A stretch of DNA of 64,000 nucleotides from a virus. The position numbers and the translations under genes were made by a program. The notes under the pieces were generated by a model. The model searched no databases and was not told where the DNA came from. It worked only from the letters and a program-made list of their open reading frames with translations. The stretch spans positions 81,344-145,343 of IMG/VR virus record IMGVR_UViG_3300032213_002070, one strand, 5' to 3'. Shown here in pieces: positions 4,235 to 60,233 of this stretch (position 1 is its first letter; each line of letters begins with the position of its first letter).

Positions 4235-4947
4235 TCGTCACTTTTTGGTTTTTGTACAAAACTTTCTTTTCTTTTAAGAATAAATTTAATTGACACATAA
4301 TTCGTATAAAGCATCGGTGCAATCGGTATCCAGTATAGGATAAACCATTTTGTAACTTCAGATGGATAAAATACCCATTGAGCTATTGAATAAATAACAA
4401 AAAGAGGAAAAGGTATAATGTAGCTTAAGATAGCATACGGTCTTAAATACTCTATCTTATAATACGTTTTTAATGTATTATAAACCATATAAGGAACACA
4501 CATGCTAATCATAAATAGCATTACAATCAGCAATTGGGCTGGTTTATTACTATTAAAGTTTACAGCTAAAGATAGGGTACCAAAAAAAATTACTCCACAA
4601 TGGTGATAAATAGTATCTTTTCTAAGATAGTATTTAGAAGCTTTAATTATACTTAAGAGTTCTACTGCTACAAGATTCATAGACAGTGATCTCATGGGTA
4701 TATCCGGATAATTACCATGTCTAATATCAGTTATGTAATAGTAGGTTAATCCTATTAAAGCTGTAATGCATTGTAGGGTCTTAACTAAATTGGAGCAAGC
4801 GCCTATTTCTCCAAAATGTTTTTTACCATCTGGTCTAAGTATAGATAAAAACTTTTCATTGCTATACAAACTATTCGAAATTAGATAAGTAAGTGCAAAG
4901 CACAGTACTGGAATAATATTATCTAATACGAAAGGATTTGTAAACAC
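4231..4947 (-). CDS. Multi-pass membrane protein
   Basis: 238 residues with about six or seven hydrophobic segments spread across the length and a Lys-rich C-terminus. A YHHCGVIFFG motif near the middle resembles the paired His of TLC-type or lipid-modifying membrane proteins, but I would not assign the family from this alone. It is coupled by ATGA overlap to the oxygenase gene downstream. Confidence 0.5.
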   Translation of the reverse strand: MFTNPFVLDNIIPVLCFALTYLISNSLYSNEKFLSILRPDGKKHFGEIGACSNLVKTLQCITALIGLTYYYITDIRHGNYPDIPMRSLSMNLVAVELLSIIKASKYYLRKDTIYHHCGVIFFGTLSLAVNFNSNKPAQLLIVMLFMISMCVPYMVYNTLKTYYKIEYLRPYAILSYIIPFPLFVIYSIAQWVFYPSEVTKWFILYWIPIAPMLYTNYVSIKFILKRKESFVQKPKSDE

Positions 4948-49165: not shown

Positions 49166-49406
49166 GTTATTACTCCTTATGTGTATGTGACAAACAGAAA
49201 CCTATCAGAGTGTTTCTACGTATTGCAACCTGTAGGGGAATATTTCTTGGATTTCTTTTGTAACCTCTATAAAGGTGTATATTCTTATACATGTTTTTTT
49301 AGGGGGAAAAATTTTTAGACTTGAAGGGTGAGTCAAGATATATAAGGGTATATAAAACTCATTAACTTAAAATATAGGGAAAAAATATAAGGGGGTAATA
49401 GTTTAT
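49166..49406. other. Non-coding AT-rich divergent region
   Basis: No gene is seen. This stretch holds the promoters for the minus-strand pair to its left, with poly-purine tracts and several TATA-like runs. No strong hairpin until 49407. Confidence 0.4.
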
Positions 49407-49449
49407 TATACCCCTGGGTAGTTATCTTTAACTAGCCCACCGGGGTATA
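49407..49449 (+). terminator. Strong hairpin before the cassette array
   Basis: TATACCCC and GGGGTATA enclose an inner stem GGG-TAGTTA / TAACTA-CCC with one bulge and a TCTT loop. No long T-run follows. It separates the upstream region from the first cassette promoter. Confidence 0.5.
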
Positions 49450-49455
49450 CCTATA

Positions 49456-49502
49456 TATAAATTATACGTGCCATATTCCCTACACGAACTGGAGGTTCGC
49501 AC
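49456..49502 (+). promoter_or_regulatory. Cassette 1 promoter box and SD-hairpin leader
   Basis: TATAAATTATAC box, then a leader with stem CGAAC/GTTCG around the loop TGGAG that holds the Shine-Dalgarno, 3 bases before the ATG. The box plus TGCCATATTCCCTAC is repeated before later cassettes. Confidence 0.6.
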
Positions 49503-49688
49503 ATGGCAACAACACCAAAGCCCTCTTATGAGGAGCGTAAGCAAGCGATTGCAGACAAGATGTTCAAGGTCGGTCGGAAGCACCGAGCCGCTGAGAACAT
49601 CGCTGCAACTGCTGTTAAGCAAACTGTCGGACTCGGCGTTACTGGTGTAACCAGTTACGTCCGTGGACAGATTGCCTCTGCTGAGTAA
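49503..49688 (+). CDS. Small early protein (61 residues), cassette 1
   Basis: Basic N-terminal half and a Gly/Val-rich hydrophobic C-terminal half (TVGLGVTGVTSYVRGQ). Codon 25 is CGG followed by A (position 49575), read as a normal Arg triplet; the frame continues to a natural stop before the terminator. The VTSY(V/I)(R/K)G motif recurs in the 26-residue protein at 58276. Confidence 0.65.
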   Translation: MATTPKPSYEERKQAIADKMFKVGRKHRAAENIAATAVKQTVGLGVTGVTSYVRGQIASAE

Positions 49689-49710
49689 CTAACCGTTACT
49701 CTCACACATA

Positions 49711-49738
49711 GCTTGGGTCCCCTTCGGGGGACCTAAGC
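49711..49738 (+). terminator. Cassette 1 terminator (UUCG)
   Basis: A twelve-base-pair stem with a TTCG tetraloop, one G-T pair, and no T-run. 22 bases after the stop. Confidence 0.75.
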
Positions 49739-49786
49739 GAACTACCATTATACATATATATTACTATATATCTTTGTATATACTCT

Positions 49787-49836
49787 TATAAATTTATCTT
49801 GCCATATTCCCTACACAACCTTAAGGAGGTTACATC
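49787..49836 (+). promoter_or_regulatory. Cassette 2 promoter box and SD-hairpin leader
   Basis: TATAAATTTAT followed by CTTGCCATATTCCCTACAC; the leader stem AACC/GGTT encloses a seven-base loop with AAGGA. Same layout as cassette 1 with different stem bases. Confidence 0.6.
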
Positions 49837-50103
49837 ATGGCACTCACACTCAAGCACGTTGATGACATCATCAACATTGCTGCACGCGAAGGACGTGTCT
49901 ACCATTACAATGGTGGACAGATCTACATTCGCCTCAGCATGCAAGGCACTGCTGTCATGGTCATTGACCATACACGTGGTGACGACGTGGAAGTATCCGT
50001 CTTTGACGGGTTTACTTACCTTGTTGAGTACGCTGGTAACAACGTGCATTACAGCAATCGTTTGCTTGCTGAGCCATCACACTTGGCTCTGTTGTACGTT
50101 TAA
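49837..50103 (+). CDS. Early protein (88 residues), cassette 2
   Basis: An alpha/beta small protein (TLKHVDDIINIAAREG, GGQIYIRLSMQGTAVMVI, GNNVHYSNRLL). No family recognised. GC content and C-rich third positions are higher than in flanking genes, as for other cassette genes, which suggests strong expression. Confidence 0.65.
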   Translation: MALTLKHVDDIINIAAREGRVYHYNGGQIYIRLSMQGTAVMVIDHTRGDDVEVSVFDGFTYLVEYAGNNVHYSNRLLAEPSHLALLYV

Positions 50104-50109
50104 GTCTGT

Positions 50110-50139
50110 GGTAACCACCTAGCCCCCTGGGTGGTTACC
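50110..50139 (+). terminator. Cassette 2 terminator
   Basis: A ten-base-pair perfect stem GGTAACCACC / GGTGGTTACC with a C-rich loop, 7 bases after the stop. Confidence 0.75.
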
Positions 50140-50158
50140 CTGACTATTATTATATGTA

Positions 50159-50200
50159 TATAAATTATACTTGCCATCCCTACCATGAAAGGAGACTACC
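50159..50200 (+). promoter_or_regulatory. Cassette 3 promoter box and leader
   Basis: TATAAATTATAC, then TTGCCATCCCTACC and AAAGGAG before the ATG at 50201. Only a weak CATG/CATG pairing surrounds the Shine-Dalgarno here. A CATG start 16 bases earlier would be upstream of the ribosome site and is rejected. Confidence 0.55.
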
Positions 50201-50317
50201 ATGTCTTACTGGCAGGCTTACAAGAAGGTCTTATCGACCAACTTGAAAGTTACCGGTGTGCTTGCGTTGATTGTGGCCGCTGCTATTGCAGTGGACTACA
50301 CTCGCAAGACCCGCTAG
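50201..50317 (+). CDS. Small membrane protein (38 residues), cassette 3
   Basis: MSYWQAYKKVLSTN then one transmembrane segment (VTGVLALIVAAAIAV) and a basic end RKTR, positive inside rule satisfied at both sides. Start set by GGAG 8 bases upstream. Followed 3 bases later by a terminator. Possibly a holin-like or membrane-modifying early peptide; unproven. Confidence 0.6.
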   Translation: MSYWQAYKKVLSTNLKVTGVLALIVAAAIAVDYTRKTR

Positions 50318-50320
50318 TTC

Positions 50321-50348
50321 AGTGCCCCCCTCTCCCCGGGGGGGTACT
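50321..50348 (+). terminator. Cassette 3 terminator
   Basis: AGTGCCCCCC pairs with GGGGGGTACT around an eight-base loop. No clear T-run. Confidence 0.7.
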
Positions 50349-50361
50349 GCTAGTTACATTA

Positions 50362-50405
50362 TATAAATTTATCTTGCCATATTTTATTTACGACTGGAGG
50401 TCGTC
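50362..50405 (+). promoter_or_regulatory. Cassette 4 promoter box and SD-hairpin leader
   Basis: TATAAATTTAT with CTTGCCATATTT after it; stem ACGAC/GTCGT around the loop TGGAG holding the Shine-Dalgarno, ATG 2 bases after the stem. Confidence 0.6.
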
Positions 50406-50543
50406 ATGTGTGTTTATTTGGAAGAAGTTGGAGATTGGGTTTCTTGTGAACCTCAGTTCCATTATGTCAATGGTGATATGCAGGATTATTATGAAACTAC
50501 TGGTTTCATTCCTGATGAAGAAGATGAGATTGAGCCCTTTTAG
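50406..50543 (+). CDS. Acidic early protein (45 residues), cassette 4
   Basis: MCVYLEEVGDWV and an acidic end DEEDEIEPF. It reads through a strong hairpin at its own stop. Below usual gene-caller length but fully framed by promoter box, hairpin Shine-Dalgarno and terminator. Confidence 0.6.
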   Translation: MCVYLEEVGDWVSCEPQFHYVNGDMQDYYETTGFIPDEEDEIEPF

Positions 50544-50549
50544 GGTTCA
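50531..50549 (+). terminator. Cassette 4 terminator overlapping stop
   Basis: TGAGCCC / GGGTTCA with the stop codon TAG spanning the loop and the first base of the right arm. Confidence 0.55.
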
Positions 50550-50571
50550 GTCTTATCTACCATTATATCTT

Positions 50572-50618
50572 TATAAATTATACTTGCTCCATTCCTACAC
50601 AACTCAAGGAGGGTTGAC
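50572..50618 (+). promoter_or_regulatory. Cassette 5 promoter box and SD-hairpin leader
   Basis: TATAAATTATAC, CTTGCTCCATTCCTACA, then stem CAACTC/GGGTTG (one T-G pair) around the loop AAGGA, ATG 2 bases later. Confidence 0.6.
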
Positions 50619-50810
50619 ATGAAGCATCAAGTATTGCACGACCGTGCGTACAACGCAGGCACTACTACACGTTTGGCTATCAAGCGTGTGGGACTGAAGT
50701 CTACTGTCATCGCAAAGCGTGTGGCATTAAAGACTGCAGATGCCGGCTTGGCTGGAATCACAGTTGTAACTTCGTTTACATCTGCGGTTACGCCAAGGCG
50801 CAAGCGTTAA
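50619..50810 (+). CDS. Basic early protein (63 residues), cassette 5
   Basis: Very basic with repeated Ala/Val/Lys (AIKRVGLKSTVIAKRVALK) and ends in PRRKR. Likely nucleic-acid or membrane binding by charge. No family. Confidence 0.6.
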   Translation: MKHQVLHDRAYNAGTTTRLAIKRVGLKSTVIAKRVALKTADAGLAGITVVTSFTSAVTPRRKR

Positions 50811-50826
50811 TTGAGACTAGTCTCTC

Positions 50827-50862
50827 ATCACATCTACCCACTTCGGTGGGTAGCTCTGTGAT
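50827..50862 (+). terminator. Cassette 5 terminator (UUCG)
   Basis: Inner stem CTACCCAC-TTCG-GTGGGTAG (e.g. cUUCGg tetraloop), extended by an outer ATCACA/TGTGAT pair with a small internal loop. Confidence 0.8.
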
Positions 50863-50876
50863 TATTATATATATCT

Positions 50877-50971
50877 TATAAATTTATTTATGGACTGTAT
50901 TACCGTACAGTTTCTCGATGGTGTCGCGCATCCAATCACTATCTACTGCTCACCTTGTGTGGGTAGTAGAT
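50877..50971 (+). ncRNA. Cassette 6: promoter box, small RNA and terminator
   Basis: The same TATAAATTTAT box starts this cassette, but no leader Shine-Dalgarno follows. Instead the transcript would hold ACTGTA/TACAGT around TTACCG, a short single-stranded part with an 18-codon frame that has no ribosome site, and at 50941-50971 a thirteen-pair terminator hairpin. Predicted length is about 80 bases. Probably a small RNA; a very short peptide is less likely. Confidence 0.55.
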
Positions 50972-50988
50972 TAATTACATTTATATCT

Positions 50989-51048
50989 TATAAATTATAT
51001 TTGACAGACAATTCCGTTTGTCTTTGAGTCTCGTGAAAGGAGACTGTT
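50989..51048 (+). promoter_or_regulatory. Cassette 7 promoter box and SD-hairpin leader
   Basis: TATAAATTATAT then TTGACAGACA; a leader hairpin AGACAA/TTGTCT, and a second, AGTCTC/GAGACT, around a seven-base loop with AAAGG. Shares both hairpins with cassette 9. Confidence 0.6.
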
Positions 51049-51294
51049 ATGTTTGATGAAGATGATTACTCTACTGTTTTGGAAAAGGTCAAAGAACTTG
51101 CTTCTTTGGGTATTGGGTCTTCTGACCTCAATCTTTCCTATGAACAGATGCTTCAGCAATCAGCTATTCAGGATTTGATTATCAGCAAGTCTACCTCTTT
51201 GGGTCTTCACATTCGTGATGCTTGTTTGATTGCAAATTTTGCTACGCATCTTTGTGCTCAAGTTTGGTTAATGCCTGCTCCCTTTGGGGAGTAG
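51049..51294 (+). CDS. Early protein (81 residues), cassette 7
   Basis: Helical, acidic N-terminus (MFDEDDYSTVLEKVKELA) and a mixed C-terminus. Its last codons form the left arm of its own terminator. Family unknown. Confidence 0.6.
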   Translation: MFDEDDYSTVLEKVKELASLGIGSSDLNLSYEQMLQQSAIQDLIISKSTSLGLHIRDACLIANFATHLCAQVWLMPAPFGE

Positions 51295-51295
51295 G
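51274..51295 (+). terminator. Cassette 7 terminator overlapping stop
   Basis: CCTGCTCCC-TTTG-GGGAGTAGG, nine pairs; the stop codon lies in the right arm. Confidence 0.65.
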
Positions 51296-51314
51296 TGTTA
51301 CCTATTTTATATTA

Positions 51315-51366
51315 TATAAATTATATTTGACCTTATTCACACTACAACTCCTGGAAGGAGGTGAAC
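51315..51366 (+). promoter_or_regulatory. Cassette 8 promoter box and leader
   Basis: TATAAATTATAT, TTGACCTTATTCACAC, then CTCCT-GGA-AGGAG directly before the ATG. Here the Shine-Dalgarno is itself paired with CTCCT, so it may be masked rather than displayed, unlike the other leaders. Confidence 0.5.
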
Positions 51367-51504
51367 ATGACCGAGCAAGAGCTCAACGAATGGTACATTC
51401 GTATGGCCGAAGCTCATACAGAAGCTGCCCCTGACGAAGCTATCGACGGTTGCGGTTGCAATCGTTGCTTCGAGGCGCAGAAGATGTATGACGGCATCAG
51501 CTGA
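51367..51504 (+). CDS. Small zinc-finger-like protein (45 residues), cassette 8
   Basis: MTEQELNEWYIRMAEAH and a compact CGCNRC motif around residues 29-34, which could bind metal with a partner. The start is set by the GGAG 3 bases away from ATG by spacing of six. Confidence 0.55.
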   Translation: MTEQELNEWYIRMAEAHTEAAPDEAIDGCGCNRCFEAQKMYDGIS

Positions 51505-51555
51505 CTTAGTCTCGGGGGAGTAACGCACCCTGGCAACAGAACAAGCGTCAACTTT

Positions 51556-51579
51556 ACTGCTCACCTTTGGGTGAGTAGT
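51556..51579 (+). terminator. Cassette 8 terminator
   Basis: Ten-pair stem ACTGCTCACC-TTTG-GGTGAGTAGT, 51 bases after the stop. It is close in sequence to the cassette 6 terminator, suggesting cassette duplication. Confidence 0.7.
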
Positions 51580-51599
51580 TTAGTTAGCTTTATATATTA

Positions 51600-51659
51600 T
51601 ATAAATTTATATTGACAGACAATCCTGTTTGCTCTTAAGTCTCGTGAAAGGAGACAATC
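51600..51659 (+). promoter_or_regulatory. Cassette 9 promoter box and SD-hairpin leader
   Basis: TATAAATTTAT then ATTGACAGAC; stem GTCTC/GAGAC around GTGAAAG. The leader is a near copy of cassette 7 while the encoded proteins are unrelated. Confidence 0.6.
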
Positions 51660-51938
51660 ATGTCAACTTCTATTGTTGCATTATTAAAGAAACAGCGTGT
51701 TCTTATTGAAGGCATTTCTGAGTGTAAGTACAAGATTGATGCACTTGATGCAGCTATCTTTGATCTTCGCACTAAGAAGTCTCTTCAGGAAGACGAGCGT
51801 AAAGCACTTTCTTTGTCTCTTCAGGAGACTGACTTTGCTTTGCTTGCTTTAATTTGTCCTACTGAAATGGACCGTGCACGTTTTGCCGGTTCACTTCACA
51901 TGTACTGTTTGAAGCTAAAGAAAGAGTCTGCCTCTTAG
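51660..51938 (+). CDS. Early coiled-coil-like protein (92 residues), cassette 9
   Basis: Two long charged helices (IVALLKKQRVLIEGISECK, RTKKSLQEDERKALSLS) typical of a small coiled coil. Stop codon lies in the loop of its terminator. Confidence 0.62.
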   Translation: MSTSIVALLKKQRVLIEGISECKYKIDALDAAIFDLRTKKSLQEDERKALSLSLQETDFALLALICPTEMDRARFAGSLHMYCLKLKKESAS

Positions 51939-51952
51939 GAGGTAGGCTTTTT
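51926..51952 (+). terminator. Cassette 9 terminator with T-run
   Basis: Nine-pair stem GTCTGCCTC-TTAG-GAGGTAGGC followed by TTTTT. The only cassette terminator with a good T-run; the TAG stop is in the loop. Confidence 0.8.
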
Positions 51953-51966
51953 CATTATTATATATT

Positions 51967-52010
51967 TATAAATTTATATTGACTTATTTCCTATCACGAC
52001 TGGAGGTCGT
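51967..52010 (+). promoter_or_regulatory. Cassette 10 promoter box and SD-hairpin leader
   Basis: TATAAATTTAT then ATTGACTTATTTCC; stem ACGAC/GTCGT around TGGAG, and the ATG follows directly. Confidence 0.6.
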
Positions 52011-52199
52011 ATGAGACTCAATGACACAGCAAGCTTTTGTTGCAAGTGTCATGCACAACTTCGTGCAATGGAAGGCCGCATCCTTTGGGATGAAGGGTTC
52101 TTCCGCACGTTCTGCAAACCCCATGCAGAAGAGTTGTTGCATGCGCGCAAGCAACGCAAGCGTAACAAGAAGAACGCAGGCATTACGCCTATGTTCTAG
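52011..52199 (+). CDS. Zinc-finger-like early protein (62 residues), cassette 10
   Basis: CCKCH and later CKPH form a probable Cys/His zinc site; the end is very basic (ARKQRKRNKKN). Possibly DNA or RNA binding. Homologous family not recognised. Confidence 0.65.
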   Translation: MRLNDTASFCCKCHAQLRAMEGRILWDEGFFRTFCKPHAEELLHARKQRKRNKKNAGITPMF

Positions 52200-52230
52200 T
52201 TAAGTAGCCACCTTCGGGTGGTTATTTAAC
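52199..52230 (+). terminator. Cassette 10 terminator (UUCG)
   Basis: Fourteen-pair stem with two G-T pairs and a TTCG loop; the left arm starts in the last base of the stop codon. Confidence 0.8.
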
Positions 52231-52257
52231 ACTGATTATATTGATATATTTTATATA

Positions 52258-52319
52258 TATAAATTATTTTGCGAAGGTTTTGTGGACACCTCCAAGTTCC
52301 ACAGAAAAGAGCAATCCCT
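52258..52319 (+). promoter_or_regulatory. Cassette 11 promoter box and anti-SD-like leader
   Basis: TATAAATTATT box. The leader hairpin TGTGGA/TCCACA (52281-52303) has the loop CACCTCCAAGT, which contains the anti-Shine-Dalgarno CACCTCC. The gene's own ribosome site is a weak AAAGAG. Confidence 0.5.
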
Positions 52320-52661
52320 ATGAGCAAGTTCCAGGTAAACTGGATTTCTCCAGAGCCAAGTAAGTTAGGTACGCACCAGATGTTGCTGAACCCATTAGGT
52401 TCGGTGACTGTGGACCGCGATACCTCAGTCAAGCCTGTATGGCAGGTTTGGCTTCCAGCTGCGGCACTCGCTGAGTACATTGAACGTTTCGAACAGGCTA
52501 AGGCCGCTTCGATGAAGTTCGTTGTTGAAGCTGAAGTCGCAAACATTGCTGTAAAGCCTGTGTTTACCCGTAAGGACGGGTCCAAGCAACAGGATCTTGT
52601 GATTAAGTTCACAGGCAAGGTGTCCAAGCTGGTGGAGGCTGACAGCTCCGTTGAGTGGTAG
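52320..52661 (+). CDS. Early protein (113 residues), cassette 11
   Basis: I chose ATG 52320; an in-frame TTG upstream would read through the leader hairpin. Beta-rich (KFQVNWISPEPSK, WQVWLPAAALAEYIERF, KFTGKVSKLV), resembling a small OB-like or ssDNA-binding fold, and related in style to the 140-residue cassette 13 product. Not assignable with certainty. Confidence 0.62.
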   Translation: MSKFQVNWISPEPSKLGTHQMLLNPLGSVTVDRDTSVKPVWQVWLPAAALAEYIERFEQAKAASMKFVVEAEVANIAVKPVFTRKDGSKQQDLVIKFTGKVSKLVEADSSVEW

Positions 52662-52680
52662 GACACACTCAAGTCACCTA

Positions 52681-52707
52681 GACCACGCCCCCTTCGGGGG
52701 GCTGGTC
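52681..52707 (+). terminator. Cassette 11 terminator (UUCG)
   Basis: GACCA and GCCCCC pair with GGGGGC and TGGTC around TTCG, one bulged C. Confidence 0.75.
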
Positions 52708-52734
52708 GAAGTAACATTATATTTATATATATTA

Positions 52735-52781
52735 TATAAATTCATCTTGTCATATTCCCTATGCGAACTGGAGGTTCGTTC
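52735..52781 (+). promoter_or_regulatory. Cassette 12 promoter box and SD-hairpin leader
   Basis: TATAAATTCAT, CTTGTCATATTCCCTA, then CGAAC-TGGAG-GTTCG, the same stem-loop as cassette 1. An ATG inside the left side of the hairpin is rejected as the start because it precedes the Shine-Dalgarno. Confidence 0.6.
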
Positions 52782-53033
52782 ATGGCAACATTTAATTTCC
52801 CGTTGTTCAATGGTGTAACTCATTACCCTGTTGACGACATCTACGAAGCAGATTGTTATTTCATCTGCGAGTTTGAGAAGCCACTGGATCATCCCGATGG
52901 ATTCTCTCATGCTCATCGATTTACTCTACCTACTGTAGAGTCTACTTACCCCAACTGTGTTGGATGCCTTCAGGCTGCAGTAGGTGAACTTTCAGAAGAG
53001 TTACAATTGTGGGCTCCGCCTAAGAGCATTTGA
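52782..53033 (+). CDS. Early protein (83 residues), cassette 12
   Basis: MATFNFPLFNGV, central DCYFICEFEKP, CVGC near the end. Aromatic and acidic mixed composition; one Cys pair. Unknown family. Confidence 0.62.
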   Translation: MATFNFPLFNGVTHYPVDDIYEADCYFICEFEKPLDHPDGFSHAHRFTLPTVESTYPNCVGCLQAAVGELSEELQLWAPPKSI

Positions 53034-53044
53034 TCTAGTTGTTT

Positions 53045-53068
53045 GTGCCACTCTTTATTGAGTGGTAC
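53045..53068 (+). terminator. Cassette 12 terminator
   Basis: Nine-pair stem GTGCCACTC / GAGTGGTAC with a six-base T-rich loop. Confidence 0.7.
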
Positions 53069-53120
53069 TTACAATTAACATTATATATATTTAATTATAT
53101 TATATTTATTTAGTTTTATA

Positions 53121-53186
53121 TATATTCTAAATTAAATCTTGGCGACTCTAGCCAAATCATCCAAACTATGCCCTCAGGAGGCAATC
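53121..53186 (+). promoter_or_regulatory. Cassette 13 leader with SD hairpin
   Basis: A diverged box (TATTCTAAATTAAAT), a TTGGC/GCCAA hairpin, then TGCC/GGCA around CTCAGGA, 3 bases before the ATG. The TTG used by some longer reading lies in the first hairpin and is rejected. Confidence 0.5.
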
Positions 53187-53609
53187 ATGTCAAGAATCCG
53201 TATTCAAGCAATCACAGACCAACACGCAATGGACGAGAGTGGCAACATTCTTCGTACTAAGGCATTGGTCTGGCCAACTCAAATTGACGAGTCTGTTATT
53301 GTTCCACCTTTTGTCGAAAAGGCAAATGGAGCATATGCCATCTGGATCGAAGCGCAAGCTAAAGCCGATGGAACAGGTGAAGTCATCAACCCAGCACAAA
53401 TCATCAAGCAACGCTTGGCAAATGCAAATGCATCAGGTAAGCAACTTATGCTTATTTGTGAAATTGCTGGGGTCAATCAGAGCCAGCCAGTAAATGGCGA
53501 CGCTAGCAAAGGCAATGGTGCAAAGGTCTACCAGACCATCACCTTCAACATCAACCGTAACGCAAAGCGTCAATTGGTTGAAGTAGAGCCAGCAGGCTGG
53601 GTTCTGTAA
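53187..53609 (+). CDS. Early protein (140 residues), cassette 13
   Basis: Strand-rich with SRIRIQAITDQ, LRTKALVWPTQ, KQLMLICEIAG, YQTITFNINRN. It resembles small single-strand-DNA-binding or beta-barrel proteins, but no family was recognised. It ends the cassette series and is followed by a 15-pair terminator hairpin. Confidence 0.62.
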   Translation: MSRIRIQAITDQHAMDESGNILRTKALVWPTQIDESVIVPPFVEKANGAYAIWIEAQAKADGTGEVINPAQIIKQRLANANASGKQLMLICEIAGVNQSQPVNGDASKGNGAKVYQTITFNINRNAKRQLVEVEPAGWVL

Positions 53610-53633
53610 TCAAGTCTCAGTAGGGATGAGCGC

Positions 53634-53670
53634 AATAGGTAGTAGAGATTAGTTTCTCTGCTATCTATTT
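53634..53670 (+). terminator. Terminator after cassette 13
   Basis: AATAGGTAGTAGAGA pairs with TCTCTGCTATCTATT around TTAGTT: fifteen pairs with G-T at two. It closes the cassette array. Confidence 0.75.
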
Positions 53671-54028
53671 GCTCTCTATATCTATGTAATCTCAAGATGT
53701 CTTGATCGGTTGGGCGCCGGCCAAGCAAAACATAATAGCAGATCCATATCAGGACTAGTAACTAAGTTACAGATAGTCATTGTGCATAGGCACTGCTTAC
53801 CTTGCGTTTTTATCCGTTTCGCACAGAAAAACGGACTCTTCTCTATACAAGTATATACACATATACTTTATAAAATAATAATTATTTGTTAGACAAACGA
53901 CTATATCAGGCTCTTGCAGGGGGGTACCCATACACCGAAGCTTATTTCAGGTTATGGTATCCCCTCGTTAGGTCTATTCAGTAATCTATTAATGCCAAAT
54001 ATATATCCGACTAATCAAAGGACTAATT
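53671..54028. other. Non-coding region after the cassette array
   Basis: No gene seen. It contains a CCGTTT/AAACGG hairpin near 53812-53832, a GGTTGG-GCGC-CGGCC-like stem near 53707, and a GGGGGGTACC run near 53918. It probably holds the promoter for the following operon of small genes. Confidence 0.4.
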
Positions 54029-54223
54029 ATGTTTACAGAACCAATCAATCTAGAGCAAATAGTCCACAACTTGGACTGGTTAGCTCACGAGATAGGCGTA
54101 CTCAATCTTGAGCACGGACTATATGAAGAAACTGACCTTAGAAGGTTTCAATCTCAACTACTTAGACTAGCTACTAAGCTAGATAAAATACACAATCATA
54201 TACCTCTATCTACAAAGGAGTGA
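54029..54223 (+). CDS. Hypothetical helical early protein (64 residues)
   Basis: The start ATG follows AAAGGA. All-helical, with HNLDWLAHEIGVLNLEHG and RRFQSQLLRLATKLDKI heptad patterns. Start of a tight operon of five overlapping genes. Function unknown. Confidence 0.6.
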   Translation: MFTEPINLEQIVHNLDWLAHEIGVLNLEHGLYEETDLRRFQSQLLRLATKLDKIHNHIPLSTKE

Positions 54224-54225
54224 CT

Positions 54226-54501
54226 ATGTCACAACGTACTTCAATCATCTATACAGCAGATGGCACTATGCACGATATCTATGAGATGAATCTTCCTCAA
54301 GCAATTGAGGAGTTCGCTCTTAGGACTCTTGCACTCACCGAGGCTGCACTGTCTGCCAATACATTGGCTATTAGTCAAGCAGACAAGATCATTAAGCTAG
54401 AAGATCGCATAGACGCTTTAGAGCAGGCTATGGACAAGGTCTTCGATTACCTTAATGACGACTCTATTGACAAGCTTATCCTAGATAGGCTTAGCAAATG
54501 A
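54226..54501 (+). CDS. Hypothetical early protein (91 residues)
   Basis: The ATG at 54226 lies 5 bases after AAAGGAG. Strand then long helix with coiled-coil spacing (AISQADKIIKLEDRIDALEQ). It overlaps the next start as ATGATG. Confidence 0.6.
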   Translation: MSQRTSIIYTADGTMHDIYEMNLPQAIEEFALRTLALTEAALSANTLAISQADKIIKLEDRIDALEQAMDKVFDYLNDDSIDKLILDRLSK

Positions 54502-54692
54502 TGACCTCTATCTATGAAGCTACATTCCTTGTAGATTTAGATAATGATCTCATTATTAATTGGGGCGGGCATCACCAGATGTCTAGCCTATTGATTCAGT
54601 CACATGGTGGTCTCACCCTCTGTGACTTTAATCAACTATCTACCAATATGTTACAATCAATCGAATTCTACACAGGAGGAAAAGCACTATGA
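54498..54692 (+). CDS. Hypothetical early protein (64 residues)
   Basis: Begins MMTSIYEATFLVDLDND. Acidic strand-rich; ends overlapping the next ATG. Unknown. Confidence 0.55.
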   Translation: MMTSIYEATFLVDLDNDLIINWGGHHQMSSLLIQSHGGLTLCDFNQLSTNMLQSIEFYTGGKAL

Positions 54693-54919
54693 TCAAAGAT
54701 CATGTTAAAGCATACACTGGTTTAGCATCAGCCTGTCTATTATGGACAGCAGCTACACTTGTAAAACCTGTATACATATCTTCTAGATTTGTATTGCGGG
54801 CCATTGGTAAAGCCAATGACAAAGTTCAGGCTAAAGCAGACTCTGGATATGATCCCCGTCACGGAGATCTATCCTGGACTTATGACCCTGAGTATATTCA
54901 GTGGTTAGAGTCCAAATGA
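54689..54919 (+). CDS. Small membrane-associated early protein (76 residues)
   Basis: One hydrophobic segment (GLASACLLWTAATLV) and a basic/aromatic remainder. Codon 37 is CGG followed by G (54797), a normal Arg triplet. AGGAGG precedes the start. Confidence 0.58.
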   Translation: MIKDHVKAYTGLASACLLWTAATLVKPVYISSRFVLRAIGKANDKVQAKADSGYDPRHGDLSWTYDPEYIQWLESK

Positions 54920-55137
54920 GTAACTACGAATTCTGGGATGAGACTGGCACAGAACTTATGACTCTGTGTCAGTTTCATACCAAACAATATATATATGATT
55001 TAACGGGCGACTCTCAGTTCGACCCACAATCTAACAAAGACTTAGACTCTATATCTGGCACACAGACAGTCAAGTCTTGTACATATTGTCAAGAGCTCTT
55101 TAAATATAAAGACTCATCTAACACAAAATCTGTGTAA
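54916..55137 (+). CDS. Hypothetical early protein with Cys pair (73 residues)
   Basis: Start ATG 54916 overlaps the upstream stop (ATGA). An acidic middle and a CTYC pair near the end; one further Cys in LCQFH could complete a metal site. Confidence 0.55.
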   Translation: MSNYEFWDETGTELMTLCQFHTKQYIYDLTGDSQFDPQSNKDLDSISGTQTVKSCTYCQELFKYKDSSNTKSV

Positions 55138-55434
55138 ATAATCATTGGACACATATAAAAGCCAATGTACTGGTATACCCTACAGCCAATGGACTATGTC
55201 CATCGGATCCAATGGATGTCGAAATGTAGGATAGGTAGTCATCACCTAAATATACTAACGGTCGTCCTACCGTAGTGAAGCTGACAATGGATAGACGAGC
55301 TATAGCGTCTCTAAACATTTAGGATAGCCTAGGCCACTGGTACAAGGGCGACATTATCGTACTCTCTGGTATATGGAGGAATAGCGTTGTATCAATATAC
55401 CACTTACACATCAATCTACTCAGGAGATTAAACT
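55138..55434 (+). other. Non-coding region, possibly structured RNA
   Basis: About 300 bases without a gene. Local hairpins include ATGGAC/GTCCAT (near 55190), AGGT/ACCT (near 55232), and AGACG/CGTCT (near 55294). A GGTATACC palindrome lies near 55173. No promoter was recognised. Could be an RNA gene or a long leader. Confidence 0.35.
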
Positions 55435-55653
55435 ATGGAAATTATTCTAGCATTATTAATAATGATATTTATGTCTGTTGCGTTTTCATTTTATGTAGCT
55501 CATAAAGCATTAAAGCGTAATGTTAATAACATTATCTTTATAGCAGAAAACTCATCAGCAGACTTTGTAAAACAATGGCGTAAACAACAGTACCCATATG
55601 ATTGGGATACTGAAGAACGTTTCGAATCTATTGTAAAGGATTTCAATAAATGA
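55435..55653 (+). CDS. Small membrane protein (72 residues)
   Basis: One N-terminal transmembrane helix (LALLIMIFMSVAFSFYVAHKA) and a soluble remainder. The leader has the stem AATCT/AGATT around ACTCAGG, an SD-hairpin like the cassettes. Coupled to the next gene by overlap. Confidence 0.62.
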   Translation: MEIILALLIMIFMSVAFSFYVAHKALKRNVNNIIFIAENSSADFVKQWRKQQYPYDWDTEERFESIVKDFNK

Positions 55654-56072
55654 GCAATACTTCTTATAAACTTATACCTAAAGATCTATCTGCAACTAAA
55701 CTATGGTGTTGTCAAGGTTGTGGCCAGCAACGACTTATTGAGTCGTGTGGCAACGGCCTACACAATGGTTTAGTATTATCTGGCTTTGGCGGATACTACG
55801 GTGGCTTTAACGATTCTATGTTTGATGTAGATACTACACAACAATGGGATGAAGTTAATTCAGCCAACCTTTGTCACCACTGTGTAGTAAAACTATTGGA
55901 GGCTTTACCTACATTAGCTTACTCACTGGGCTTAACTAGTGGCGCTCATCCATCTGACCATAACAATACACCGTGTTGTCAATGGGCGTGGTCACTAGAT
56001 GATAATAAAGTAACTCATTACGCTAAACTCAATGTATTCGGTAACTTGGTCTGGGAACCTAGGGAAACCTAG
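55650..56072 (+). CDS. Cys-rich early protein (140 residues)
   Basis: Cys pairs CCQGC and CHHC, plus one CC near residue 110, suggest one or two zinc sites; the middle is Gly/Asn/His-rich. No family recognised. A hairpin GGAACT/AGTTCC follows at 56072. Confidence 0.6.
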   Translation: MSNTSYKLIPKDLSATKLWCCQGCGQQRLIESCGNGLHNGLVLSGFGGYYGGFNDSMFDVDTTQQWDEVNSANLCHHCVVKLLEALPTLAYSLGLTSGAHPSDHNNTPCCQWAWSLDDNKVTHYAKLNVFGNLVWEPRET

Positions 56073-56090
56073 GAACTCAGTCCTAGTTCC
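56071..56090 (+). terminator. Hairpin after the Cys-rich gene
   Basis: GGAACT-CAGTCCT-AGTTCC overlapping the stop, no T-run. Weak terminator candidate. Confidence 0.4.
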
Positions 56091-56166
56091 ACCACTATAT
56101 AAACCTAAAAATCAAAAAATCGCGGACCGCAAATTGGCCTATTAAGGTCGAAGGGAGTTTGTTTGT

Positions 56167-56307
56167 ATGTTTATCCTATACATATTCCCAACATTACTTG
56201 TAGTGTCTTGGGTAATAAGACTCTTAGCCTATGGACTAAGTAACTTAAACCCCAAGCCCTTCTTGAAGGGAACTATTGTAGAGCGCAAGCTCGGAAAGTA
56301 TCTATAA
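56167..56307 (+). CDS. Small membrane protein (46 residues)
   Basis: One transmembrane stretch (YIFPTLLVVSWVIRLLAYG) and a basic C-terminus (VERKLGKYL). GGGAG Shine-Dalgarno. The stop overlaps the next start as TAATG. Confidence 0.55.
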   Translation: MFILYIFPTLLVVSWVIRLLAYGLSNLNPKPFLKGTIVERKLGKYL

Positions 56308-56504
56308 TGTTAACACCTTGTTTAATATGTGAAAAAGCTGTGATCTATTACGCGCCTTTAACAAAGACGCTTAATTCAGCTTCATCTATAACTATAGATT
56401 CTAAATACGGCTCGAACTTTGAGAGCCATCAATATACAGGTATCATCTGTGATGACTGCCTGGATCACTTAATTCAATCAAATAAAGTCCTATCTAACCC
56501 TTGA
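56307..56504 (+). CDS. Hypothetical protein with Cys pairs (65 residues)
   Basis: CLIC and CDDC are about 45 residues apart, a probable zinc ribbon. Translationally coupled to the gene before. The stop codon lies in the SD-hairpin loop of the next gene. Confidence 0.58.
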   Translation: MLTPCLICEKAVIYYAPLTKTLNSASSITIDSKYGSNFESHQYTGIICDDCLDHLIQSNKVLSNP

Positions 56505-56519
56505 AAGGGGTAAATCAAT

Positions 56520-56768
56520 ATGTTATTTAAAAACAAATATCAACAAACAGCAAATCCAATTATCGGTATGATTATTTTCTGTCTTGACTTAGTTGTCCTT
56601 ATTGGTATTCCAGTTTATACCTTTACTCAATATGGAATCGGTTCAGCCATTGTTATGGTTCCCGTTTCATTATTCATAATTAGCCCTATTGTCACATTTT
56701 TAAGTGCATCAATAGGTGCTATTCTTATGATTGTTTTAGGTATCTTTACTAAAAGACACAGTATCTAA
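56520..56768 (+). CDS. Two-helix membrane protein (82 residues)
   Basis: Two hydrophobic segments (MIIFCLDLVVLIGIPVYTF and VPVSLFIISPIVTFL...) with short loops, typical of small phage membrane proteins. Its leader stem ACCC/GGGT encloses TTGAAAG. Confidence 0.65.
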   Translation: MLFKNKYQQTANPIIGMIIFCLDLVVLIGIPVYTFTQYGIGSAIVMVPVSLFIISPIVTFLSASIGAILMIVLGIFTKRHSI

Positions 56769-56776
56769 GGAAACCT

Positions 56777-57100
56777 ATGTCTAAACTAGACCATCCAGCG
56801 TATGGGGCTCATTCACTTGAGCCTCATACAAAGACAAACATTACCTATCATGCTGCTTGCCAGCTATTACAAAACTCTCATCTAACCATCTTGAAGGATT
56901 TAGCCTTTGGCGATTCCGAATATCAATGGTACGATGACGATAATAAACATATAGCCGAAGGCTATTTAGGGAGTAACTTAATCGATATATACTTTATGGA
57001 CTATATCGTAGATGCTTATTGTTCATTAAACGAAAAGCTTTATATGTTCACCCTATCTAAAACTAAATCCACTCACCGTAACGATTCTCAAGGAGAATAA
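56777..57100 (+). CDS. Hypothetical early protein (107 residues)
   Basis: MSKLDHPAYGAHSLEPHTK, then a strand-rich part (DSEYQWYDDDNKHIAEGYLG). Acidic aromatic composition; unknown family. It ends 2 bases before the next ATG region. Confidence 0.58.
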   Translation: MSKLDHPAYGAHSLEPHTKTNITYHAACQLLQNSHLTILKDLAFGDSEYQWYDDDNKHIAEGYLGSNLIDIYFMDYIVDAYCSLNEKLYMFTLSKTKSTHRNDSQGE

Positions 57101-57102
57101 CT

Positions 57103-57402
57103 ATGCAAATAGAAAAGTTCAATGAGCAATATTCAGACTCTAAAGTCTATGGCTTTATGGTCTATAACCGCAGTGGCAATTCACTACCTAAGGGTATGAT
57201 TAGCTCTTATAAGGTTATGGCATATAGCCCTACACAAATCCATATTCAATGGAGTGTTCAAAGCGGAAGTCAGGGAGCTGATTCGTCAGATCACTATAAC
57301 TTCAGCATGCCTGTAGATACATTCGAGCGTGGCAAAGTTATGGTCGATATGTACTCAACAATGGTTCATAATTACATTTACGAACAGGACAATGTTCTAT
57401 GA
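57103..57402 (+). CDS. Hypothetical early protein (99 residues)
   Basis: Beta-rich (KVYGFMVYNRSGN, SYKVMAYSPTQIHIQWSV). The leader ATTCTC-AAG-GAGAAT places the Shine-Dalgarno in the stem. Overlaps the following small gene. Confidence 0.58.
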   Translation: MQIEKFNEQYSDSKVYGFMVYNRSGNSLPKGMISSYKVMAYSPTQIHIQWSVQSGSQGADSSDHYNFSMPVDTFERGKVMVDMYSTMVHNYIYEQDNVL

Positions 57403-57500
57403 ACAAAACCATAAAAGTATCTATGATTGTAACAACCGTAGCATTCGTAGCCCTTGGCTTGTACAGGGGCACGAAAGCTTGGTTATCATACAAAAAATAA
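57399..57500 (+). CDS. Small membrane protein (33 residues)
   Basis: MNKTIKV then one transmembrane segment (MIVTTVAFVALGLY) and basic end. The ATG overlaps the previous stop (ATGA). Reasonable only because of coupling. Confidence 0.45.
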   Translation: MNKTIKVSMIVTTVAFVALGLYRGTKAWLSYKK

Positions 57501-57570
57501 GATATAAACAACATAAGCCCATTATAAGTTAATATCCACCCTATAATATCTTCCTGAAAGGAAGTACATT

Positions 57571-57852
57571 ATGTATCCAATCGTATTAGCAGTATTGCTA
57601 AGCGTAGCAATTGCCTCAGTATATGAGCATATTACATCTGAGTTTGTCCGTTTCGGCAAGCTCAAGTTCATCAGCAACCCACCTCTGATTATCGGAATTC
57701 TTTCCGTTGCAGTGGCTTGGTATGGTGATGTATCTATCCTTGGAGCGTACGGTTTTACCGGCGCTCAGTGGATTGATGTTCTTGGCTCAGGTATGGTAAT
57801 TGCTACTGCAGCACCTGTCCTTGAAGGTTTCTTGGACAGACTGCCTAAGTAA
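57571..57852 (+). CDS. Membrane protein (93 residues)
   Basis: Several hydrophobic stretches (VLAVLLSVAIASV, LIIGILSVAVAWYG, GSGMVIATAAPVLEG). SD hairpin CTTCC-TGAAA-GGAAG precedes the ATG. Possibly a small phage membrane protein. Confidence 0.6.
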   Translation: MYPIVLAVLLSVAIASVYEHITSEFVRFGKLKFISNPPLIIGILSVAVAWYGDVSILGAYGFTGAQWIDVLGSGMVIATAAPVLEGFLDRLPK

Positions 57853-57955
57853 TTCATTTAATAAAATAATATACATCTGGCATATGTGTATATTCTAAAT
57901 ATATCTAGATATGCCATTTAAACTAATCACTTCAATCTCTTGAAAGGGGATTATC

Positions 57956-58279
57956 ATGAGTAAGACGAAATATCGTCTCAAGAATGTGGCTGAAACAGCC
58001 ACTTATTACACGGGCAAACTTGCTATTGCTCCAGTCGTAGCTGTAGTTGATACTACAGTAGCTGCTGGTCAAGCAACTGTTGCCCTCACTAAGGGACTTG
58101 GACAAGCTGCATTGCATATTGTCAAAGCCCCATTCTCTGGTATGGCACGTGGCAATGAGTTCTACACAGAACGCTTTGCTATTCGTCATCAGATGACAGT
58201 AGAACGTAACCGTAAGCTTGCTTCTGGTGAGTACACTGAAATCGTAGTTCCAGTTAGCGAAGAAGCAGAAATCGTATGA
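57956..58279 (+). CDS. Early protein (107 residues)
   Basis: Hydrophobic, Ala/Val-rich amphipathic segments (LAIAPVVAVVDTTVAAGQATVAL) and a basic middle. The leader AATCTC/GGGATT encloses TTGAAAG. The short gene after it is coupled (ATGA). Confidence 0.6.
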   Translation: MSKTKYRLKNVAETATYYTGKLAIAPVVAVVDTTVAAGQATVALTKGLGQAALHIVKAPFSGMARGNEFYTERFAIRHQMTVERNRKLASGEYTEIVVPVSEEAEIV

Positions 58280-58356
58280 TCCGTAAAGTTCGAGAGTTTT
58301 TCGGACTTTCATATGTAGCTGTTACCAGTTACATTAAGGGTTATCGAGCAAAATAA
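58276..58356 (+). CDS. Very small early protein (26 residues)
   Basis: MIRKVREFFG then SYVAVTSYIKGYRAK, coupled by ATGA to the gene before. The VTSY(V/I)(R/K)G motif also ends the cassette 1 protein, which supports it being real. Confidence 0.45.
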   Translation: MIRKVREFFGLSYVAVTSYIKGYRAK

Positions 58357-58360
58357 TCGT

Positions 58361-58389
58361 ATAGCCAGGGGTTAATAGCCCCTGGTTAT
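58361..58389 (+). terminator. Terminator hairpin
   Basis: ATAGCCAGGGG pairs with CCCCTGGTTAT (one G-T) around seven bases, directly after the 26-residue gene. Confidence 0.7.
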
Positions 58390-58480
58390 ATACAAAAGAG
58401 ATGAGATCAACCATCTCTATTAAACATCATAATATAATAAGTCCATATACTTATACCTACCACTATAAACAGGAGTAATC

Positions 58481-59575
58481 ATGTCACAACTTGACAATGT
58501 ATTCGATCTCTTTGCCGCTGGCGAAGACTTTAGTATTCTAGCCACTGATCCCGGCAGTCTCAATAGCGCAGGCCGTACAACCACTTTGGTTAAAGGTCGG
58601 CGCGTCCCATTCAACGCAAGCATTGCAGGCGTTGAGTTCCCAGGCTATGTGACTCTTGAGTCCGCACGCCTACACCGTGTATCGGTTATCGATCACGAAT
58701 CACGCAAGCAGGGTACAACTTCCAAGCTCGTTACTGGCATCTTTAAGCCAGTTAAGATGAACGTGGAAATCGTTGTTGATGGCGAAGTCCTTACCCTTCC
58801 AAACTTGCTCCGCAAGATTGCTATGCGTAATGTAGCTACAGACAAGCAAGTTTCTGAGGAGCAGTTTATTGCTACTCTTGAACAGCTTGGTATGCGCTTT
58901 GCTTCTGGTATGAACTTGTTCTGGCAACAATTTGGTGCCAACCAGGAAAGCATTGCTCAGCTTGTAGATACATTTAAAGCAGCTGGTGCTGTAGATGCTA
59001 TGGGTTCTATGACGAATCCAGGTCGCATCAAGCAGTGTTACCAGATGCCTCGTGTAAACGATGCTGATATCGATGGCCCAGAAGTTGTAAGCTTCGAGCT
59101 TGGTCGTTCAGACCGTGCTCAATCAATGACAGGTCAAGGATATCTTGACTTGGTTGATGCTTCAACGGAAAACTTTAAGCGTATCTATATACTGCGTAAG
59201 CAGGCTGCAATTATGAAACAGCAGATTCGTGAGAAGTCTGTATCCGAAAACTGGAGCCAAGAGCGTACAGCACAAGCAAATAAGGAAGCCAATGAGTTGG
59301 TTCGCCTTAGCCAGCAGTGGGCGACCGTTTGGTCAGGTGCTCAACAGCGTACACTGGTAGATCCTAAAGATCCATCAGTCAAGACCCCGCAAGATATCTA
59401 TGATCCTACATCCGCACCATGCGGTAGGTTCAAGCTTATCGTTAAGGGTGATGAAGTCGCTATTGACCTTTGGACAAATAGTGCTCGTGCTAATACTTCA
59501 GATAACTCGGTTAAGGTTAACGCACCAGCGTCAGCCGATTCCGCAGTTGATGAATCAATCCTTAGCTGGAACTAG
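58481..59575 (+). CDS. Early protein (364 residues)
   Basis: A soluble alpha/beta protein, acidic N-terminus (SQLDNVFDLFAAGEDFS), a basic beta region (VKGRRVPFNASIAGV) and helical middle. CGG at 58598 is a normal Arg triplet (followed by C). Codon use looks highly expressed. Strong terminator downstream. No known family. Confidence 0.6.
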   Translation: MSQLDNVFDLFAAGEDFSILATDPGSLNSAGRTTTLVKGRRVPFNASIAGVEFPGYVTLESARLHRVSVIDHESRKQGTTSKLVTGIFKPVKMNVEIVVDGEVLTLPNLLRKIAMRNVATDKQVSEEQFIATLEQLGMRFASGMNLFWQQFGANQESIAQLVDTFKAAGAVDAMGSMTNPGRIKQCYQMPRVNDADIDGPEVVSFELGRSDRAQSMTGQGYLDLVDASTENFKRIYILRKQAAIMKQQIREKSVSENWSQERTAQANKEANELVRLSQQWATVWSGAQQRTLVDPKDPSVKTPQDIYDPTSAPCGRFKLIVKGDEVAIDLWTNSARANTSDNSVKVNAPASADSAVDESILSWN

Positions 59576-59593
59576 TAATTAGTTCTAGCTAAC

Positions 59594-59652
59594 AAGGCTT
59601 GGGTTGGGGGTGTCTGTTCCTGAGACAGATGCCTCTAACCCACCTAAGCCTT
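59594..59652 (+). terminator. Long terminator hairpin
   Basis: A long imperfect stem, AAGGCTT/AAGCCTT at the base and GTCTGT/ACAGAT inside; followed by an AT-rich tail. Confidence 0.7.
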
Positions 59653-59713
59653 ATACTTATATATATAAATATTTTTTTATTCATACAAAGACTAGCAATG
59701 ATTGGGGTAACAC

Positions 59714-60202
59714 ATGTTCATTCAAATGATGATTATGCTGGCAGTGGCTTCAACTCTAGTAGAGTTAATGTTCGCTGCTAGATTTAAATTCTGGCGTCTA
59801 AATGCGCATAAATATAAATGGGTTAACATGACCATTTCTATTTTATTGTCATTTATTCTAGGTGAAGCGTTCGGTGCTGTTGGCCTAATTGCATTAGGTG
59901 CAGCAGTACTTTCAACTATAATGTCAGTTCCAGGTTATGCATTCTTACACTGGAACCATGACTCAGCAGTTGCTATTACACAAGGTGGAAATCGCACCAT
60001 TTATTACTGGAAAAATTTCCATACCCATTGGGCTAAATGGCGCGTAGCTTTAGCTGATTTTGGTCAGTTAATTTATTCCTTTATAAGAATAATCACATTC
60101 CCTATTTGGGCAATGCGATATCTATTTATTAAAGCAAGACCATATATAGTTAAATATAACGCATATACAGCTCGTAGGCGTGCCAAATTATCACATTCAT
60201 AA
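59714..60202 (+). CDS. Multi-pass membrane protein (162 residues)
   Basis: Three or four hydrophobic segments (MLAVASTLVELMFA, LSFILGEAFGAVGLIALGAAVL) then a basic C-terminus (YTARRRAKLS). No family recognised. Precedes the 833-residue gene by 31 bases. Confidence 0.6.
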   Translation: MFIQMMIMLAVASTLVELMFAARFKFWRLNAHKYKWVNMTISILLSFILGEAFGAVGLIALGAAVLSTIMSVPGYAFLHWNHDSAVAITQGGNRTIYYWKNFHTHWAKWRVALADFGQLIYSFIRIITFPIWAMRYLFIKARPYIVKYNAYTARRRAKLSHS

Positions 60203-60233
60203 TTTAAACTAATCGGAAACTCAGGAGGGTTAA

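Follow-up and report, generated by a model that had tools for sequence, protein, structure and literature searches.

A hairpin over the Shine-Dalgarno sequence in a small-gene array

The window analyzed here is a stretch of 64,000 nucleotides (nt) that forms the end of a virus record of 145,343 bases (IMG/VR IMGVR_UViG_3300032213_002070). Tail fiber, portal, and terminase genes occupy its minus strand, and an array of small one-gene units lies on the plus strand at 49.4 to 53.1 kb, with further small plus-strand genes beyond it at 54 to 60 kb. Our subject is a short hairpin that carries the Shine-Dalgarno (SD) sequence in the leaders of these small genes. Most units of the array consist of a TATAAATT element, a leader of ~30 to 45 nt, a small open reading frame (ORF), and a G+C-rich hairpin behind it. 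The element lies 42 to 60 nt ahead of each ATG in the coding cassettes and is presumed to act as a promoter; searches for sigma-70 region 4 gave sub-threshold matches only and thus pointed to no phage sigma factor for this TATAAAT element. None of the array ORFs tested matched Pfam. The array recurs in metagenomic relatives, where the element reads TATAAATAT.

An earlier note, made from the letters alone, had proposed that GGAG or AAGG is held in a hairpin loop or at its edge in many of these leaders. Every stem that it listed is present at its place (Table 1), those of genes 55435 and 60234 being weak. Its wording is also apt, in that many leaders of the window have the SD only partly looped, so that "loop or loop edge" is the best description; the exception is gene 51367, where the SD is paired. 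The leaders of genes 50201, 54029, 54689, 56777, and 58481 in the same range have no SD hairpin.

Leader-specific pairing

Genes were called with a simple caller, leaders were aligned on the first GG of the SD, and each was scored by the best helix across that GG (loop of 3 to 10 nt, Turner stacks). As a control we used an arm swap, which grafts the 5' part of one leader onto another leader's SD and 3' part, retaining composition, SD, and start codon. With stem sequences and loop sizes that vary, it is a better-powered test than a covariance-model search and was chosen in its place; a column-by-column covariation map of all early leaders was smeared by the variation in loop size, with only one column pair at a z of >3 in either set, and was abandoned. 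The contrast tested is that between nonstructural and structural genes, "early" being only an inferred label.

The 23 leaders at 49 to 60.3 kb have a mean score of -2.54 kcal/mol versus -1.14 kcal/mol when swapped (z = -4.92, P = 0.0002); combining the arms of different leaders thus abolishes the pairing. The signal is seen in the cassettes alone (z = -3.6, n = 11) and in the leaders at 54 to 60 kb (z = -2.7, n = 12). The comparison with shuffled leaders that had been proposed as a check gave the same answer, with dinucleotide shuffling of the 5' part yielding a z of -3.3 (P = 0.004, n = 23). Extension to related phages showed that the pairing is leader specific there too: once leaders differing at no more than 3 of 24 positions had been merged, the 429 nonredundant leaders of the phage family gave a z of -12.4, a set that exceeds the number of independent events because of shared ancestry.

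No signal was found in the 57 leaders of minus-strand structural genes of the window (z = +1.2), in structural genes pooled over the phages of the family (n = 410, z = +1.2), or in contigs of unrelated viruses (n = 335, z = +0.4). Phage TM4 (z = +0.7) and the 60- to 100-kb region of Bacillus phage KLEB27-3, which holds mostly structural genes (z = +0.3), were negative as well, and the 30- to 78-kb region of T4 gave a weak signal (z = -1.9). Hairpins located 24 nt ahead of the SD also showed a strong arm-swap signal and, being probable terminators, were left out of consideration. A search of the window from 46 to 62 kb retrieved no Rfam match up to an E value of 1.

Compensatory changes between orthologues

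The leader of gene 52011 has the hairpin ACGAC-TGGAG-GTCGT in both the window phage and its relative L021. The orthologues in L022, L227, and L228 have ACGAT-TGGAG-ATCGT and that in L232 has ACAAC-TGGAG-GTTGT; the hairpin is lost in L231. Thus, both partners have changed at two of the five pairs, pairing holds in 100% of cells, and all slid controls score lower. Taken alone this evidence is modest, because there are four distinct sequences and 27 of 500 shuffles match the observed covariation.

Other orthologues keep a hairpin as well. In L021 and L022, the first gene has exchanged the whole stem, from CGAAC/GTTCG to CAACC/GGTTG, and the second has gone from AACC/GGTT to GAAC/GTTC. An entire stem has likewise been exchanged at gene 57571 (CTTCC/GGAAG to ATTATC/GATAAT), and at gene 57956 the 3' arm has changed from GGGATT to GAGATT. 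We conclude that the observation is confirmed and extends beyond the genome of the window, and the arm swaps, the compensatory changes, and the negative controls together support the proposal that the SD-bearing hairpin itself is under selection: the letters of the stem vary between genes and phages, and the pairing is retained. With 72 distinct stems among 83 hairpins, it is the fold and not the sequence that is kept.

Anatomy and distribution of the hairpin

The stems are weak, having 4 to 6 bp at about -3 to -6 kcal/mol, and loop size is free within 3 to 7 nt, 6 being the least enriched (7 seen, 4.6 expected). The sharpest enrichment is for a 3' arm that starts at +3, right after the GGA (27 seen versus 2.5 expected), and it is gone when the 3' arm begins at +5 or later. 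In a register scan, the top closing pairs were -2/+3 (23 versus 4.0 expected), -3/+4 (21 versus 5.4), and -2/+4 (13 versus 3.6). The usual layout therefore has the GGA (or GGAG) in the loop or at its 3' edge and the second GG of AGGAGG paired. The 3' arm mostly ends 0 to 7 nt ahead of the start codon, which it overlaps in 8 of the 83. Hairpin frequency depends on the SD: 37 of 68 leaders with AGGAGG (54%) and 12 of 18 with TGGAGG (67%) have one, as against 19 of 173 with other GGAG sequences (11%), and in structural genes AGGAGG and TGGAGG are accompanied by a hairpin in 12 to 13%.

Family genes that follow the preceding gene by 15 nt or less, and are thus operon internal, show no signal (n = 73, z = 0.04). 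The signal is limited to nonstructural leaders preceded by over 45 nt of intergenic DNA, with a z of -7.2 at gaps of 46 to 100 nt and -10.1 at gaps of >100 nt. In structural genes it is absent at any gap, including gaps of >45 nt (n = 182, z = +1.6). On the basis of these gap-class and structural-gene results, the hairpin belongs to the promoter-proximal leaders of nonstructural genes, a restriction that narrows the choice of purposes. Within the window, the internal genes 56520 and 57103 are exceptions that bear a hairpin.

Possible functions

The role of the hairpin is probably in helping or controlling the start of protein synthesis. The reading we favor, at a probability of roughly 0.48, is that it forms a weak self-contained ribosome-binding site on promoter-proximal nonstructural mRNAs that leaves the SD core accessible and does not block the start codon. 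Such a hairpin would let a short ribosome-binding site fold independently of the varied coding sequences downstream and would stop neighboring sequence from capturing the SD core. The 30S subunit would meet the looped core as a point at which anti-SD pairing can nucleate; the 3' arm occupies the spacer between the SD and the start codon, leaving the latter outside the stem. Because the stems are weak and the start codon is free, a 30S subunit docked on the loop could then melt the stem. A self-folding site of this kind would insulate varied small genes from their surroundings and would suit interchangeable one-gene cassettes made up of a promoter-like element, leader, small ORF, and terminator-like hairpin. 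The concentration of hairpins on strong SDs supports a ribosome-binding function, as does their absence from operon-internal genes, which are able to receive ribosomes from the preceding gene.

Several observations weigh against this reading. A pure display device would free the whole AGGAGG, yet its second GG is mostly stem paired, which the short distance between the SD and AUG may explain. If the hairpin were a generic aid to translation, its absence from the structural genes with long upstream gaps would be left unexplained. The SD is largely paired at gene 51367 and in the hairpins of the UGAAAGG type (genes 57571, 57956, and 56520). Predicted folding favors the reading, the probability of an unpaired GGA being 0.61 with the leader's own 5' arm and 0.33 with a swapped one (P = 1.7e-8), mostly as a result of its position in the loop; this comparison, though, follows in part from how the hairpin set was selected, and within the 13 hairpins of the window the difference falls short of significance (P = 0.22).

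The main rival is that the hairpin marks a class of transcripts, an RNA-binding protein or endoribonuclease of the phage or host reading the looped GGA and the stem-held next G to shut off or spare nonstructural mRNAs, in the manner of T4 RegB on early mRNAs or of CsrA on its targets. The confinement of hairpins to nonstructural leaders, with structural leaders lacking them, is as expected under such a scheme, and the constant feature, the 3' edge at which GGA is free and the next G is paired, is the geometry of S1-independent cutting by RegB, which according to a review cuts alone at sites with an unpaired GGA and a constrained G after it (PMC3014915). The GGAG sites of T4 early translation starts have this form in the S1-independent substrate, with GGA unpaired and the fourth G constrained (PMC3014915), and the leaders of the family share it through their 3' arm at +3 (27 versus 2.5 expected) and their closing pairs -2/+3 and -3/+4. 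They differ from T4 sites in that the A-rich GGAGRAYARAA is absent, a G and then the variable arm of the stem coming after GGAG in the hairpin leaders, and in that the T4 region gave only its weak arm-swap signal. CsrA, too, favors GGA in the loops of short hairpins, and CsrA/RsmE sites resemble ours in having a looped GGA on a short stem over the SD (PMC7652899). However, the hexaloop ANGGAN is not favored here, loop sizes of 3, 4, 5, and 7 all being more enriched than 6. RegB (PF10715) found no match in 15 phage records at an E value of ≤1, and CsrA (PF02599) none above the cutoff in the same number of phage records, the only records covered. The absence of the hairpin from operon-internal genes of the same region and the concealment of the GGA in several hairpins of the window also tell against a class mark, which we regard as rather unlikely. 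Its fuller form, in which a family-wide posttranscriptional switch uses the GGA-loop hairpins as its address and has a regulator or nuclease that is unrelated to RegB and CsrA and acts on promoter-proximal nonstructural SD loops, is to be viewed with greater doubt; if true, the switch would operate in phages of freshwater actinobacteria.

That the hairpin guards against decay at or close to the 5' end of short promoter-proximal mRNAs is improbable. Such protection would explain why hairpins occur only on leaders that are probably at transcript 5' ends, but classical 5' protection requires a stem very near the 5' end, whereas a start 14 to 16 nt after the beginning of the TATAAAT element would leave ~15 unpaired nt before the stem, and the position of the stem follows the GGA instead. 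Pyrimidine-rich leaders readily pair by chance with a purine-rich SD, and swapped leaders do reach -2 kcal/mol or lower in 9% of cases in the family set and 24% in the window set. However, the arm swap preserves both composition and SD and still gives z values of -4.9 and -12.4, and the same tests are null on structural genes and unrelated phages, so that chance complementarity is refuted by the controls. An operator acting at the DNA level was rejected, as the stems share no common sequence.

Comparison with SD-associated elements

Cluster K mycobacteriophages have SAS elements, GGGATAGGAGCCC, at the starts of nonstructural genes (PMC3203893). Like the hairpins described here, these are repeated SD-bearing elements at the starts of some nonstructural genes of actinophages, and the restriction to such genes is common to both; moreover, the GGG and CCC of GGGATAGGAGCCC could close a loop around AGGAG. 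They differ in being a fixed, conserved 13-bp sequence as opposed to many distinct stems. In TM4, the SAS arms are fixed, departures are mostly uncompensated, and the arm swap is negative; hence, the SAS may work like the hairpins of the family but is not the same thing. Structured ribosome-binding sites of bacterial mRNAs in general, in which the SD lies within or next to a weak hairpin, with 30S standby or unfolding (e.g., PMC3936740 and PMC3858243), likewise involve a local hairpin over the SD that is opened by the 30S subunit; relative to those accounts, the present case differs in having one architecture on many unrelated small genes, family-wide, with changing stems and in one gene class. 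We found no description in the open-license literature of covarying SD hairpins across the genes of one phage.

The layout can be condensed into a rule for design, in which GGA and AUG stay free and the stem occupies the spacer between SD and AUG. Covariation has seldom been applied to selection on the structure of ribosome-binding sites because leaders are usually studied singly. Here, dozens of nonhomologous leaders in one phage family serve as natural replicates and the structural genes as an internal control, so that purposeful folding of phage ribosome-binding sites becomes directly testable. The pattern points to differing control of nonstructural and structural mRNAs in abundant uncultured freshwater phages.

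Table 1. Promoter-like elements and leader hairpins of the window
Feature	Gene	Position	Strand	Remark
Promoter-like element TATAAATTATAC, cassette 1		49456..49467	+	One per unit
Same kind of element, other cassettes		49787, 50159, 50362, 50572, 50877, 50989, 51315, 51600, 51967, 52258, 52735		
CGAAC-TGGAG-GTTCG SD hairpin	49503	49485..49499	+	-3.5 kcal/mol
AACC-TTAAGGA-GGTT SD hairpin	49837	49817..49831	+	
ACGAC-TGGAG-GTCGT SD hairpin	50407	50390..50404	+	
CAACTC-AAGGA-GGGTTG SD hairpin	50619	50600..50616	+	Relatives CAACC..GGTTG
AGTCTC-GTGAAAG-GAGACT hairpin	51049	51027..51045	+	SD spans loop and 3' arm
CTCC-TGGAA-GGAG hairpin	51367	51348..51360	+	Exception: SD GGAG paired in stem
GTCTC-GTGAAAG-GAGAC hairpin	51660	51639..51655	+	
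ACGAC-TGGAG-GTCGT SD hairpin	52011	51996..52010	+	Compensatory changes in orthologues
GCGAAC-TGGAG-GTTCGT SD hairpin	52782	52763..52779	+	-5.6 kcal/mol
TGCC-CTCAGGA-GGCA SD hairpin	53187	53169..53183	+	
AATCT..AGATT weak hairpin	55435	55413..55429	+	~-0.8 kcal/mol
ACCC-TTGAAAG-GGGT hairpin	56520	56497..56511	+	Overlaps end of upstream gene
ATTCTC-AAG-GAGAAT hairpin	57103	57084..57098	+	Operon internal; L021 and L022 orthologues without it
CTTCC-TGAAA-GGAAG hairpin	57571	57550..57564	+	L021 orthologue stem ATTATC..GATAAT
AATCTC-TTGAAAG-GGGATT hairpin	57956	57934..57952	+	L023 AATCTC..GAGATT
AACTC-AGGA-GGGTT weak hairpin	60234	60218..60231	+	~-0.8 kcal/mol

Relatives, hosts, and other conserved elements

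The terminase is common to the wider phage family. Among 50,697 named phages we found no close relatives, a DNA search of named phages for the cassette array gave no match, and the proteins of genes 58481 and 60234 have no relatives there. The actinobacterial regulator WhiB is encoded in 8 of 15 relatives examined, which makes actinobacterial hosts likely for the family; the record of the window itself had no WhiB match, and a search of bacterial genomes with the terminase to find the host returned none.

An outer helix between GCCAU at the presumed transcript 5' end and AUGGC at the start codon was considered for the cassettes at 49456 to 52790 and rejected: it was noticed post hoc, with P values of 0.004 for the window and 0.016 for its near relatives, and is absent family-wide. 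Two relatives have, in place of the TATAAAT element of the array, TAAATATCGGC-N3/4-GCCGAT (L231, 8604 to 8630 and 9965 to 9985; L232, 9252 to 9275, 9955 to 9975, and 10556 to 10575), a palindrome at the presumed start site that perhaps reflects a different type of operator or repressor. Just ahead of the array, at 49300 to 49450, the window and its relatives share a conserved noncoding block with the inverted repeats GGGTAATAGTTTATTATACCC and TACCCCTGGG...CCCACCGGGGTA.

The leader of the gene at ~52320 (52258 to 52320) lacks a strong SD and has a GTGGA..TCCAC hairpin with the anti-SD-like CACCUCC in its loop; relatives retain the hairpin (GTGAC..GTCAC) and do not retain CACCUCC. Around and after the stop codon of gene 51367, the window (51505 to 51550) and L021 (~3988 to 4033) have a nearly identical 45-nt sequence, GACTTAGTCTCGGGGGAGTAACGCACCCTGGCAACAGAACAAGCG, whose conservation exceeds the expectation for a spacer. 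An array unit devoid of an ORF, with a promoter-like element and a terminator-like hairpin, lies at 50877 to 50976 and is conserved in L021 (2831 to 2930); it folds better than shuffles (z = -3.5) and probably encodes a small RNA of ~90 nt. A second ORF-less unit, a further small-RNA candidate, is near-identical in L021 (2941 to 3119) and L022 (1209 to 1390) and is absent from the window. Ahead of the next gene block, at 53690 to 53990 (L022, ~4140 to 4450; L232, ~11340 to 11640), there is conserved noncoding sequence of the form GGTTGGGCGCC ... CTTGCAGGGGGGTACCCAT, with no Rfam match. Finally, a long conserved noncoding stretch at 55130 to 55415 (L021, 7550 to 7810; L022, 5346 to 5640; core in L023, ~6505 to 6570), likewise with no match in Rfam, has a predicted structure in which, across three phages, both bases of five pairs have changed and is a candidate for a new structured RNA.

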